Notes: generated by a model not told the origin, from the letters alone. A stretch of DNA of 64,000 bases from Cytophagales bacterium (GCA_030448185.1 JAUJNL010000009.1:41892-105891), one strand, 5' to 3'. Counted from the first letter of the stretch, positions 43,228-50,996 are shown. Translations and numbers: made by a program.

Positions 43228-43319
43228 GCCCATAACACCAGCCACAACCGATCACCGGCCTGCTCCACCGCAAATCTCAGCAGGAAGGCACGGCGCCGGG
43301 TGGCTTCGGTCCGTTGGTT
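43228..43319 (+). other. attC site 5
   Basis: GCCCATAAC complements cassette start TTATGGGC; ends GGTCC|GTTGGTT. Confidence 0.88.
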
Positions 43320-43835
43320 GCAATAGGCCGGAGAAAGGATTGGGAAAAGGCTTTATTCAGTTAGAGCGAAAAGACTCTTAAGAGTCTAAAGCAACTTGAC
43401 GAGTCGAAGCGGCAAAACCGCTTTTGCCAGCGGAAGACGAGGAAGACGAGGCAAGTCAGCTAGCTTGCTGACAGAGGCGACGAAGTGGATAAGCAGCAAG
43501 CGTTTCGCTCTAGAACGAATAAAAGGTGAGATTTATTGTGGGGCAAGGGCTAGAGGCCCGGGCTTTTTTCTCCGGCTCGTCTTGGGCAAGGTGATTGATA
43601 AGAGAAGGCGCCCAAGACTGGTTTCCTTCTTTTCTAGGGGTTGTTGCGTCAATACTCATTATTGAATCGTCAACAACCCCCGCGCCGATAATCTAGCATA
43701 GGCCTAACCCGCCGATGGGCCAGGGCTGAAAAAAAGAAGCAAAACAACAGACAACCAACAGGCGCTACGCCGGACAACCCGCTATCACCACCACTAGCTC
43801 GGCGACGCACGGGTATGCGGGTAGCCGCCGTTCCG
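43314..43835 (+). ncRNA. Cassette 6: non-coding structured cassette, copy A
   Basis: About 520 bp, paralogous to 43836-45604 and 50489-50996; conserved helices; no conserved reading frame. Confidence 0.55.
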
Positions 43836-43841
43836 TGGTTG
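43752..43841 (+). other. attC site 6
   Basis: CAACCAAC complements cassette start GTTGGTTG. Confidence 0.7.
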
Positions 43842-45604
43842 CAATAGGCCGGAGAAGTGATCAGGAAATGGCGTATTGGTTCAAGAGCGAAAGACTCCTG
43901 AGAGGAGTCAAGGCGACTGGGCGAACCGAAGTGCAAAAGGGCTTTTGCTGGCTGAAGGCGAAGACCAGTCGGCCAGCTGCTTACAATAGCGGCTAAGGGA
44001 GTAAGCAGCAAGCGTTTCGCTCTCTAGAACGAATACTGGAGCAGATTGGAGTTCCCCGTAAAAGTGGAGGGTGAGAGAAAGAGTACTTAACCACCCCAAC
44101 CATTACCATGTCTACCAAGAAAAGACCTACACCAGAGAGTTTAAAGAAGAAGCTGTTCGGCTAGCGCAGAAAAATGGGAATATGAGTGAGACAGCAAGAA
44201 GTCTAGGCGTCCATGATAGTATTCTTCGACGTTGGAAAACTGAGTTAGCGCAAGATGGTCAGAAAGCCTTCCCAGGTAAAGGCCATACTCAGGATGAAGA
44301 ATTACGAGAGTTACAACGGGAAAATCAACGCTTAAAGGAGACTGTCGAGATCCTAAAAAAAGGCAGTGGGTATCTTCAGCAAGAGCTCCCAGTAAGATAC
44401 CAATTCATTGGGGGCATTGTGAGGAATATTCAACAGAGCGATTATGTGAGACAATGGAAGTATCCATAAGCGGCTACTACGCCTGGAAAAAAGCGGCCAG
44501 CAAGTACTCGAAAGCAAGAAAATCAACAAATAGTGGAAGAAATCAAAGTAATTCACCAGCAAAGCCGAAGTACTTATGGCAGTCCTCGTATTTACCAAGA
44601 CCTAAAGGAAAAGGAATTTCTTGTTCAGAGAACCGAATAGCCAGATTGATGAAAAAACATGAGATTGCCGCTAAAAGAAAAAGAAAGTTTGTCATAACCA
44701 CTGACTCCAAACATAACCTGCCAGTAGCTGAAAACAAACTTAATCAGGACTTTACAGCGGCTAACCCTAATGAAAAATGGGTAACGGATATCACGTATGT
44801 GTGGACGAAACAGGGGTGGTTATACCTAGCCGTAGTGTTGGACTTATTTTCCAGAAAAGTAGTGGGTTGGGCCATGGATGCTAGTATGGAAAAAGAACTG
44901 GTAATGAAAGCTTTACAGATGGCTTTGCAAGCAAGAAAACCAACAAAAGGTTTACTTCACCACTCGGACCGGGGTAGCCAGTACGCTAGTAATGATTATC
45001 AGAAACTGCTTAATTCTAATAATATAAGCTGTTCAATGAGTCGGAAAGGAAACTGTTACGATAATGCCGCAATGGAAAGCTTCTTTGCTACCCTCAAGCA
45101 GGAGCAAGGTTTACCACCAGCAATATGAAACTAGAAAAAGAAGCCAAACAAGACATTTTTGAATATATAGAAGTCTGGTATAACCGAAAACGAAGACATT
45201 CATCATTGGGCTACTTTAGCCCTGACCAATTTGAACACCAAAGCCAATATCAAATGGCTGCCTAACCTTTTCTCACCCTCCACTATTTTGGGGGAAACCC
45301 AGATTTATTGCGTGGCTGGGCTAGAGGCAGCGCTCCATCTCCGGCTCGTCTTGGGCAAGGTGATTGATGAAGGCGCTTCTTCAAGACCGGGTTTATCCTT
45401 CTTTTTAGGGGTTGCTGCGTAGAGGCCGCTCAAGACGACAACAACCCCCGCGCCGATAAACTTAACACAAGGCCGACCCACCGATGGGCCAGGACTGAAA
45501 AAGAAGGAAAACAACAGACAACCAACAGGCGCTACGCCGGACAACCCGAGCTATCCTTACCACTAGCTCGGCGACGCACGGGTATGCGGGTAGCCGCCGT
45601 TCCA
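43836..45604 (+). ncRNA. Cassette 7: non-coding structured cassette, copy B, interrupted by an IS3 element
   Basis: Sequence shared with copy C on both sides of the IS at 44047-45301. Confidence 0.55.
44047..45301 (+). mobile_element. IS3-family element (decayed)
   Basis: Ends TGGAGTTCCCCGTAAAAGTGGAGGGTGAGA / TCTCACCCTCCACTATTTTGGGGGAAACCCA, GAT target duplication; OrfA YTREFKEEAVRLAQKNGN; OrfB TDITYVWTKQGWLYLAVVLDLFSRKVVGWAM...HSDRGSQYAS, frameshifted before [15 protein letters not shown]. Confidence 0.92.
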
Positions 45605-45610
45605 TTAGGG
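45519..45610 (+). other. attC site 7
   Basis: CAACCAACAGGCGCTACGCCGG...GGGTAGCCGCCGTTCC|ATTAGGG. Confidence 0.7.
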
Positions 45611-45677
45611 ACAATAAAATCATTAAGATGTAAATACCACTTTTATACATTAGTTGGCAATATTAACACCTAAGCTA

Positions 45678-48574: not shown

Positions 48575-49646
48575 TAAGACAAAAAGGAATATAAGATGGT
48601 GGATGTTGCTTATCTTTCGGGATGCAAAGAAATTCATTTTGTTAAATGAAGCGGAGGTTGAGACATTAACGCAAGGTCATAAAAACCATCCTTCAGCCCA
48701 GGTACGGGCCCGCTGCCACTGTTTAATATTGAGTAATCAGGAAAAAGAAGTCAAAGAATTAGCGTCCATATTCTCGGTGATCCCCCTGACAGTGTATAAG
48801 TGGTTTTCTCGCTGGGAAGAAAAGGACTGGTAGGATTATTTAACGAAAAAGGCGTAGGTCGCAAAGCCATTTTCACTGTCTCCCGACCAGGCAGTGATCA
48901 AAGAGAAAGTACAGGCTAATCATCAGAAGTTGTCTTTGGCCCGGCAAGCAATCAAGGCTGAACTCGATAAAGAGTTCTCAGAGAGAACGTTAAAACGTTT
49001 TTTAAAAAGTTTGGTGTCGGATGGAAACGCTGGCGAAAGTGCTTGAAATCCAAGCAGGACGCTCAGCAAGTAGCTTATAAGCAGGAGTGTTTGAGAGAGA
49101 TTGAACAACTCAAAGACCAGAACCATATTGAGGTGTTTTATGGAGATGAAAGTGGGTTTTGTTTAACGCCGGTAATGGCTTATTCTGGCAGTATCAGGGG
49201 AAGAAATCCGGATACTACCCCAGAAAGGAAAACGAATTAATGTCTTTGGCATCATGGCGAAGCTAACCAACTGAAAGTTTTCAGAAAGAAGGTAGTATTA
49301 CCACTGATTTTATCATTGATTCCATTGACGCCTGGATACCTGCCTTAACCAAGCCTACCGTACTTATTTTAGATAACGCTCCCGTGCATCAAGCCAAGAA
49401 GTTTCAAGAGAAAATCCCCACTGGCAGGAAGAAAACTTGTTCATTTTCTTTTTACCGCCTACTGTCCGCACTTCAATAAAATTGAAACCCTATGGCGAAA
49501 GGTGAAATATGAGTGGCTTAAGCCGGAACACTACCTTGTTTAGCCTCCCTCAAAGAGGCCCTTACTGTTATTTTTAGCTGCTTTGGACAAGAATATACGG
49601 TCAAGTTCTCTTAATTTATTTTATATTCCTTTTTGTCCTACTACTT
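48570..49646 (+). mobile_element. Decayed IS630-family element
   Basis: Inverted ends AGTACTAAGACAAAAAGGAATATAAGAT / TTTATATTCCTTTTTGTCCTACTACTT; fragments VRARCHCLILSNQEKEVKELASIFSVIPLTVYKWFSRWEEK and VFYGDESGFCLTP. Confidence 0.8.
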
Positions 49647-49755
49647 AACCTCTTTTTTATGATCACAACGCTCAAACTAATACAATAGCAGACCAAATCA
49701 GAAAATTAGAAAAAGCCGGAAAACAGTAGCTTTCCTGGCTAACGATTATGAGGCT

Positions 49756-50067
49756 TTGAATAAAATCTGGCATCCTCAATTTATGGCAAACACACCCTTA
49801 AACAGGATTCTTAAAACAGCAGACATTCAAGGTGCTATGAAAGCAGGGCTGATCAAATATTCTTTACTGGAACGAAACATAGAAGAAATCATGATTGGGG
49901 ATCATGTAGTGATTACATTGGGCAGCGAAGCTACCATACCTATAGACAAAGCACCTATGGCGGGACAAAAAGTTACAAGACGGTTTACAAACACTTGGAT
50001 TAAAGAAAATAATGAGTGGAGAATGTTTGCAAGGCATGCCAGCAATATTTGTGATGAGGATAAGTAA
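49756..50067 (+). pseudogene. NTF2-like/DUF4440-like protein, N-terminus disrupted
   Basis: MNKIWHPQFMANTPLNRI...GDHVVITLGSEA...RRFTNTWIKENNEWRMFARHAS; upstream homologous-looking residues are in other frames. Confidence 0.6.
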
Positions 50068-50403
50068 ATGAATGCAACAGGATCGTATTATTTAGGAAAA
50101 TTGAAATCAGTACTGCCCCTATCCCTGCCTTGCCAAAATGTCGACTGATAACAATCAGTAGGCATTTGTTCATTAATCAACATTTGAATAACTTACTAAG
50201 CTAATGGAATGCTTTAACCGGCACTCCGGTAAGGCTAACTTATGAAGAGCAGTTTAAAAATTAACAGAAGGAGATTCAAGATTTGACTGATAAGCTATTT
50301 GAAATACCAGCTGAGAGAGGAATGTACACGCTTATACTTACTGTAGAAAGATTATGTCATAGCAGAAAACTTTAAGTACAGAAAACTGAATTGATAAACA
50401 ACT

Positions 50404-50494
50404 GCCCCCAACATCAAGCAGACCTTCCAGCCCGCCGCTGATGCCAGTTCCAAAGCATGAGGCGAGGCCGTCGGCTGCTCATATTCCGTTGGTT
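50404..50494 (+). other. attC site 8
   Basis: GCCCCCAACATCAAGCAGACC...GCCGTCGGCTGCTCATATTCC|GTTGGTT; 5' arm matches the 45604 start with one mismatch. Confidence 0.6.
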
Positions 50495-50996
50495 GCAATA
50501 GGCCGGAGAAGTGATCGGGAAATGGCGTGGTCTAAGAGCGAAAGACTCGAGAAGGAGTCAAGGCGACTGGGCGAACCGAAGTGCAAAGGGCTTTTGCTAG
50601 CTGAAGGCGAAGACCAGTCGGCCAGCTTGCTTACAATAGCGGCTAAGGGAGTAAGCAGCAAGCGTTTCGCTCTAGAACGAATACTGGAGCAGATTTATTG
50701 CGTGGCTGGGCTAGAGGCAGCGCTCCATCTCCGGCTCGTCTTGGGCAAGGTGATTGATAAGAGAAGGCGCCCAAGACTGGTTTTATCCTTCTTTTTAGGG
50801 GTTGCTGCGTAGGAGCCCGCTCAAGACGACAACAACCCCCGCGCCGATAAACTTAACACAAGGCCGACCCACCGATGGGCCAGGACTGAAAAAGAAGGAA
50901 AACAACAGACAACCAACAGGCGCTACGCCGGACAACCCGGGGCTATCCTTACCACTAGCTCGGCGACGCACGGGTATGCGGGTAGCCGCCGTTCCA
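50489..50996 (+). ncRNA. Cassette 9: non-coding structured cassette, copy C (uninterrupted)
   Basis: AGAGCGAAA 50535-50543 pairs with TTTCGCTCT 50665-50673; CGACTGG 50564-50570 with CCAGTCG 50614-50620; GTCTTGGGC 50738-50746 with GCCCAAGAC 50769-50777; GGGGTTG 50798-50804 with CAACCCC 50833-50839. Confidence 0.6.

Follow-up and report, generated by a model that had tools for sequence, protein, structure and literature searches.

Introduction

Integrons are best known for gathering protein genes, and their cassettes recombine as folded single strands. GOLLD, ROOL, OLE, HEARO and the group II introns are large, multi-branched and noncoding, and some of them are carried on mobile elements. Cassettes that lack a gene have been described in Vibrio (PMC11014356) and in Treponema (reviewed in PMC8876359), and the passages on them report promoter activity. 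Xanthomonas integrons carry a noncoding RNA, sRNA-Xcc1, which the passages on it describe as spread on cassettes (PMC8876359, PMC12444791). For the Bacteroidetes, the IntegronFinder 2.0 paper gives only In0 elements from earlier work and names one complete integron, in Salinibacter ruber (PMC9024848). In the open-access literature, we found no paper on a large conserved fold in integron cassettes.

We analysed a 64,000-nt stretch of DNA from a Cytophagales bacterium (the window), and observed that it holds three copies (A, B and C) of one unit that has no ORF and a body of about 430-447 nt. Like the Vibrio and Treponema cassettes, as far as the passages on these describe them, the unit carries no gene, has its own attC and lies inside a cassette array. 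Those cassettes, however, are known for promoter activity, and the same passages mention neither a conserved multi-helix fold nor a cross-genus family. The RNA proposed below would resemble sRNA-Xcc1 in being a noncoding RNA on integron cassettes, while sRNA-Xcc1, in the parts of the sources that describe it, has symE in the same cassette and runs in the direction opposite to the array (a distinction made by description, not by sequence). Like GOLLD, ROOL, OLE, HEARO and the group II introns, the element is large, multi-branched and noncoding, but it has no Rfam match. The attC sites, with which these cassettes end, are palindromic DNA that folds, whereas the body is separate from the attC, is larger, and has a fold of its own that is retained where the attC differs. 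We are almost certain that these units form a new family of ORF-less integron cassettes with a body of about 430 nt and a conserved fold.

Copies of the cassette in the window

An earlier note, made from the window alone, had described three diverged copies, each with a characteristic start and an attC at its end, the second one being interrupted by an IS. We located all three (copy A at 43313-43835, copy B at 43835-45604 and copy C at 50488-50996), and the interruption of copy B was confirmed as an IS3-like element at about 44047-45301 with a duplication of GAT. The body starts with GTTGGTTGC (GTGGTTGC in copy B) and ends with CAACCAAC, and after it comes an attC-like hairpin site about 83 bp long. 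The features are given below, with the matches to two covariance models, R1 (the 3' half) and R2 (the 5' half).

43313-43759, plus strand: copy A, cassette body, from GTTGGTTGC to CAACCAAC (R1 at 43570-43748, R2 at 43347-43540)
43752-43835, plus strand: attC-like site of copy A, directly abutting copy B
43835-44046, plus strand: copy B, 5' part, as far as the inserted IS (R2 at 43867-44051)
44047-45301, plus strand: IS3-like element splitting copy B (ORFs with HTH_Tnp_1 and rve; ends inverted but imperfect; 3 bp, GAT, duplicated)
45302-45526, plus strand: copy B, 3' part of the body (R1 at 45339-45515)
45519-45604, plus strand: attC-like site of copy B
50488-50917, plus strand: copy C, cassette body (R1 at 50729-50906, R2 at 50521-50702)
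50910-50996, plus strand: attC-like site of copy C

Copies A and C are 79% identical, and the two halves of copy B are 93-95% identical to copy C. A fourth, near-complete copy (D, 98% identity) was found on contig C113 of the same genome. The bodies of copies C and D are 98% identical, yet the attached attC sites are different.

Integron setting

We searched for cassette chains, in which the reverse complement of a start recurs downstream as R'' and a new R' follows 50-140 bp later. On the cassette strand, the window, the related genome G002 (locus L053) and Rhodocytophaga rosea (G004, locus L052) gave 10, 15 and 6 matches, against 1-3, 0-1 and 0-2 in shuffled sequences. The copies sit in arrays of one-gene cassettes, and each is bounded by R' and R'' and has its own attC. 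As in an integron gene cassette, the 3' site is of the attC type and its R'' pairs with the cassette's own start, and the ends of the body coincide with the recombination junctions. An end-to-end helix, GTTGGTTG/CAACCAAC, could be counted as evidence of RNA. However, the protein-coding cassettes of the same arrays showed the same complementarity between start and R'', and so this terminal helix is explained by the R'/R'' pairing of attC and was rejected as a sign of RNA.

The R. rosea array contains other cassettes as well, and adjoins a 596-aa tyrosine recombinase of the XerA/integron type (L052, 18132-19922), which passed the XerA-type model NF040815 at 229.9 bits. With the classical IntI model TIGR02249 the score was 210.8 bits, below the cut-off of 265, and profile positions of about 179-241, which we used as the mark of the integron-specific insert, were unmatched in the genomic matches. 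In the window's own genome (75% complete), we found no integrase near the arrays. In R. rosea, with its complete genome, the family offers a clean test case for the role of gene-less cassettes.

Copy D is the first cassette of another array, beside tyrA (identified by reading). Its site resembles the junction that adjoins the recombinase in R. rosea (AGTTGGGAGTA..TTGTT), and on this resemblance in letters it may be attI-like.

Distribution

When 100 relatives were searched at the DNA level, the element turned up in four of the eight genomes of the window's family and nowhere else. Besides the window's own genome, these are three genomes, R. rosea among them, with relatives of the element at 71-75% DNA identity. 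Searches with R1 and R2 together gave 12 copies in the four genomes, three of which are in R. rosea. No copies were found outside the family with R1 across 396 genomes of the order or with R2 across 399 genomes of the phylum (stricter filters applied in these large searches), and none were found in plasmids or phages. The viral contigs gave nothing real, and their pattern matches were unrelated when the sequence was inspected. An exact-pattern match in a Firmicutes MAG was also set aside, as its flanks were unrelated and a 19-mer should match about twice by chance in 264 Gb.

A conserved multi-helix fold

The common fold consists of P2, which closes the 5' domain, P3, which closes a four-way junction with P4, P5 and P6, then P7, and P8, which encloses P9. 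In copy A the elements are as follows.

43326-43578, plus strand: P2, GGCCGGAGAA (43326-43335) with TTCTCCGGCTC (43568-43578), closes the 5' domain and shows hardly any variation
43353-43522, plus strand: P3, 43353-43371 with 43503-43522, closing the four-way junction
43372-43387, plus strand: P4, hairpin AGACTCT/AGAGTCT
43393-43456, plus strand: P5, 43393-43398 with 43452-43456, with an inner hairpin GGCAAAA/TTTTGCC (43411-43428)
43463-43501, plus strand: P6, GCTTGCTG/CAGCAAGC
43530-43540, plus strand: unpaired motif GATTTATTGTG, nearly invariant and common to subfamily X
43579-43618, plus strand: P7, GTCTTGGGC/GCCCAAGAC
43622-43743, plus strand: P8, 43622-43633 with 43731-43743, enclosing P9
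inside P8, plus strand: P9, GGGGTTG (43637-43643) with CAACCCC (43674-43680), inner part TCAATA/TATTGA

The helices named in the earlier note are present in copies A and C with the letters it gave, except that its GCAAAAG/CTTTTGC reads GGCAAAA/TTTTGCC in copy A; its GTCTTGGGC/GCCCAAGAC is partly lost in copy B, which reads GCTTCTTCAAGAC. P7 is visibly damaged only in this IS-interrupted copy, which fits copy B being the broken one. The two paired differences to which it had drawn attention, ACTTG/CAAGT in copy A against ACTGG/CCAGT, and TCAATA/TATTGA against GAGC/GCTC in the inner part of the last helix, were both confirmed when copies A and C were read. Unpaired positions also form invariant clusters (ATTTATTG, CGAAG and GC.GAA; over six lineages, 35 and 37 unpaired columns do not vary), and these would fit an RNA or a single strand that is recognised.

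The fold exceeds chance. RNA folding gave a minimum free energy of -158.6 kcal/mol for copy A (z = -4.2) and -165.3 for one R. rosea copy (z = -5.1). In two structural alignments of 10-12 distinct copies (44 and 28 pairs, 72 in total), 94% and 97% of the cells were paired. Changes on both sides were seen in 16 of 44 and 8 of 28 pairs, while the shuffles averaged 9.0 and 3.0 and none of 500 reached the observed counts; the structure had guided the fitting of these alignments, copies from one genome are not independent of each other, and some of the changes in P8 may be a one-base shift. With the added homologues, the covariation suggested earlier was strengthened (24 of 72 pairs, against 12 in shuffles). 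The pairing pattern was lost in a control in which the partner strand was slid by 1-3 columns. Under a tree-based covariation null (R-scape style), 4 of the 72 pairs passed at E<0.05, a test of low power because the sequences are so few; the same per-pair threshold was passed by 32 of the remaining pairs, which number about 31,360, and this makes the structure pairs about 50-fold enriched. P2 is too invariant for covariation to bear on it.

A T-rich stretch lies downstream of P7 (GTCTTTGGC...GCCAAAGAC, then TTGTTTTTCCTTCTTTTT). This could be read as part of a cis-acting expression cassette, with a body that serves as promoter, terminator or attenuator and controls how the downstream cassettes are transcribed, and the passages on promoter activity in the gene-less cassettes of Vibrio and Treponema (PMC11014356, PMC8876359) would agree with it. 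We consider such a role improbable, since a promoter has no need of ten conserved helices, the loop of P7 exceeds 20 nt, and the cassettes downstream vary from copy to copy. Terminator-like matches were at chance level (2 against 1.1), and a sigma-70 type scan, which would miss Bacteroidota promoters, gave no promoter-like match in or just upstream of copy A.

Coding potential and known RNA families

We observed that the longest stop-free frames change frame and strand from copy to copy, and that many of the indels between copies are not multiples of three. The earlier statement that there is no conserved reading frame thus held, and a protein-coding body was ruled out. The Rfam comparison suggested in the same note gave 0 matches at the gathering score in the window, and nothing relevant in the copies of the four genomes even at E up to 5-10. 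The known families (group I and group II introns, HEARO, GOLLD, ROOL, RNase P, tmRNA and others) were rejected, as there was no Rfam match. A retron or group II intron was considered as well, but Rfam gave no match to an intron, and in an unsystematic look no reverse transcriptase was noticed beside the copies.

RNA or single-stranded DNA

G.U pairs are the signature that separates the folding of RNA from that of DNA. In the conserved pairs of the element, 12 of 764 cells were G.U (1.6%), and A.C cells also numbered 12. In RNase P, used as a control (four genomes of the same family, Rfam structure), there were 40 G.U (9.9%) and 3 A.C in 404 cells. The G.U fractions differed at p ~3e-10 and the G.U:A.C ratios at p ~1e-4, with cells that are not independent and with a bias in the comparison: the rarity of G.U is in part a selection effect, since the helices were chosen for complementarity, and a few of the A.C cells are alignment shifts in P3. 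Minimum free energy folds, which are free of this choice of helices, had 6.5% G.U in the element, as against 14.5% for RNase P and 13.4% for shuffled sequences.

The sense and antisense strands of the element fold about equally well. The difference in energy (sense minus antisense) was -3.8 kcal/mol, as against -12.6 for its own shuffles and -27.9 for RNase P. Changes at both partners were seen in 56 cells and changes via G.U in 11, while in RNase P these were 28 and 24. Thus, the hallmarks of RNA, an excess of G.U over A.C and a sense strand that folds better, were not observed in the element. Such strand-symmetric pairing is what one would expect of folded DNA, or of arms that templated repair keeps alike. 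Since G.U is rare and does not outnumber A.C, the target of selection may be single-stranded DNA, or both strands, rather than an ordinary RNA, and the near lack of G.U pairs makes the choice between RNA and DNA directly testable.

The body might therefore work as folded single-stranded DNA, with no RNA function needed; its role could lie in binding the recombinase or proteins of replication, in protecting the circle once excised, or in tuning the excision of its own cassette or of neighbouring ones. This would account for the equal numbers of G.U and A.C cells, for the similar folding of both strands, for the excess of both-partner changes over the G.U route that RNase P does not share, and for body ends that are recombination junctions. 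We find it somewhat unlikely, given that cassettes with protein genes in these arrays are mobile and have no body of this kind, and that the invariant unpaired motifs would require single-strand-specific recognition, while the G.U statistic carries the bias and non-independence mentioned above. It is also unlikely, in our estimate, that the multi-branched body functions either as folded single-stranded DNA or in both polarities, and not as an ordinary RNA, which would make it a structured nucleic-acid 'gene' captured and shuffled by the integron and distinct from attC.

The central proposal of the earlier note, a new structured RNA carried as a mobile cassette, stands in part. Its diverged copies, covarying multi-helix fold, lack of a known family and noncoding nature were borne out, but G.U pairs are nearly absent and as frequent as A.C, and the two strands fold alike. 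This gene-less cassette of Rhodocytophaga-related bacteria is probably a new kind of working RNA, or else a folded single-stranded DNA, spread by an integron. If a multi-copy, cross-genus cassette family has a large conserved fold and no protein, integrons would also collect structured nucleic acids.

We tentatively propose, as a reading that could well prove right, that the cassette is a putative structured noncoding RNA which is moved by the integron and acts in trans. It would be transcribed from the array or from a neighbouring promoter, the transcript would fold, and the folded RNA would act in trans, probably with a protein partner, while the integron would move and duplicate the cassette like any gene cassette. 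This RNA reading is supported by the homologues in four genomes, the lack of an Rfam family, the z-scores and the pair changes on both sides. The architecture of subfamily X, the invariant unpaired clusters and the body kept between copies C and D while the attC differs also argue for it, as do the cassette-chain geometry, the recombinase and the precedent of sRNA-Xcc1 for a regulatory RNA borne by integrons. It is weakened by the scarcity of G.U, the lack of a promoter match and the low power of the tree-based test.

Subfamily X

Three near-identical cassettes in G002 (L053, starts near 5408, 6832 and 11378) make up a distant subfamily, X, which matched R2 weakly (E 0.003-0.006). They fold into the same P3{P4,P5,P6} junction with other letters, and P9 is common as well. 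Subfamily X could be aligned to copy J of G006 over much of its length, with a score above all 300 shuffles, and the alignment included the motif ATTTATTGTG and the arms of P9. The model R3 gave only E 0.004-0.02 against family 1, so the link between the subfamilies rests on the R2 match, the alignment with copy J and the common architecture.

The same comparison bears on whether the element could be a passenger, an inverted-repeat cassette whose arms are kept alike by templated repair in hairpins rather than by selection, and which is spread by the integrase alone. The strand symmetry of the changes, the presence of several copies per genome, and helix segments that are swapped as whole blocks in both arms (as in TCAATA/TATTGA against GAGC/GCTC) would all be in line with this. 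We nevertheless hold it to be very unlikely, because the order and spacing of the ten helices are kept as far as subfamily X, unpaired positions are likewise conserved across two genera, and visible damage to P7 is confined to the IS-broken copy.

A match of R3 in G037 (E 0.007) was only a single long hairpin and was discarded. A decayed relative was also found, at G002:C7.

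Differing attC sites beside the ORF-less cassette body

L058 14112-14555 and its downstream sequence, compared with
window 50488-50996, copy C of the ORF-less cassette

We observed that the bodies were 98% identical, while the attC sites were unrelated; an unaltered body is flanked by a different attC.

Cassette arrays of the window and its relatives

window 39424-39843, lipoprotein-like cassette ORF; G002 counterpart, L053 from ~3606
window 46616-49650, cluster of IS elements (IS4/5-type and others) within the cassette array
window 51991-52335, cassette-sized ORF matching Pfam Imm8 (immunity protein 8)
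L053 6475-6724, 8350-8665 and 12482-12724, additional ORF-less cassettes

Since the same lipoprotein-like ORF is carried by the window's genome and by G002, a relative in its family, members of the genus share cassettes. The IS cluster mixes decayed and intact elements, and the Imm8 ORF is apparently an orphan immunity gene within the array. The ORF-less cassettes of L053, the G002 array locus, have TTGGCGA-type stretches in common, and could be a third noncoding cassette family.

L052 18132-19922 (Rhodocytophaga rosea, G004 627131-628921, minus strand), array-adjacent recombinase

This recombinase has the same orientation as the cassettes. It showed no match to the integron-specific insert, and carries an N-terminal arm of ~300 aa with a HARP-like trace. 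It is possibly an under-described integron type. Its relatives are numerous in Bacteroidota.
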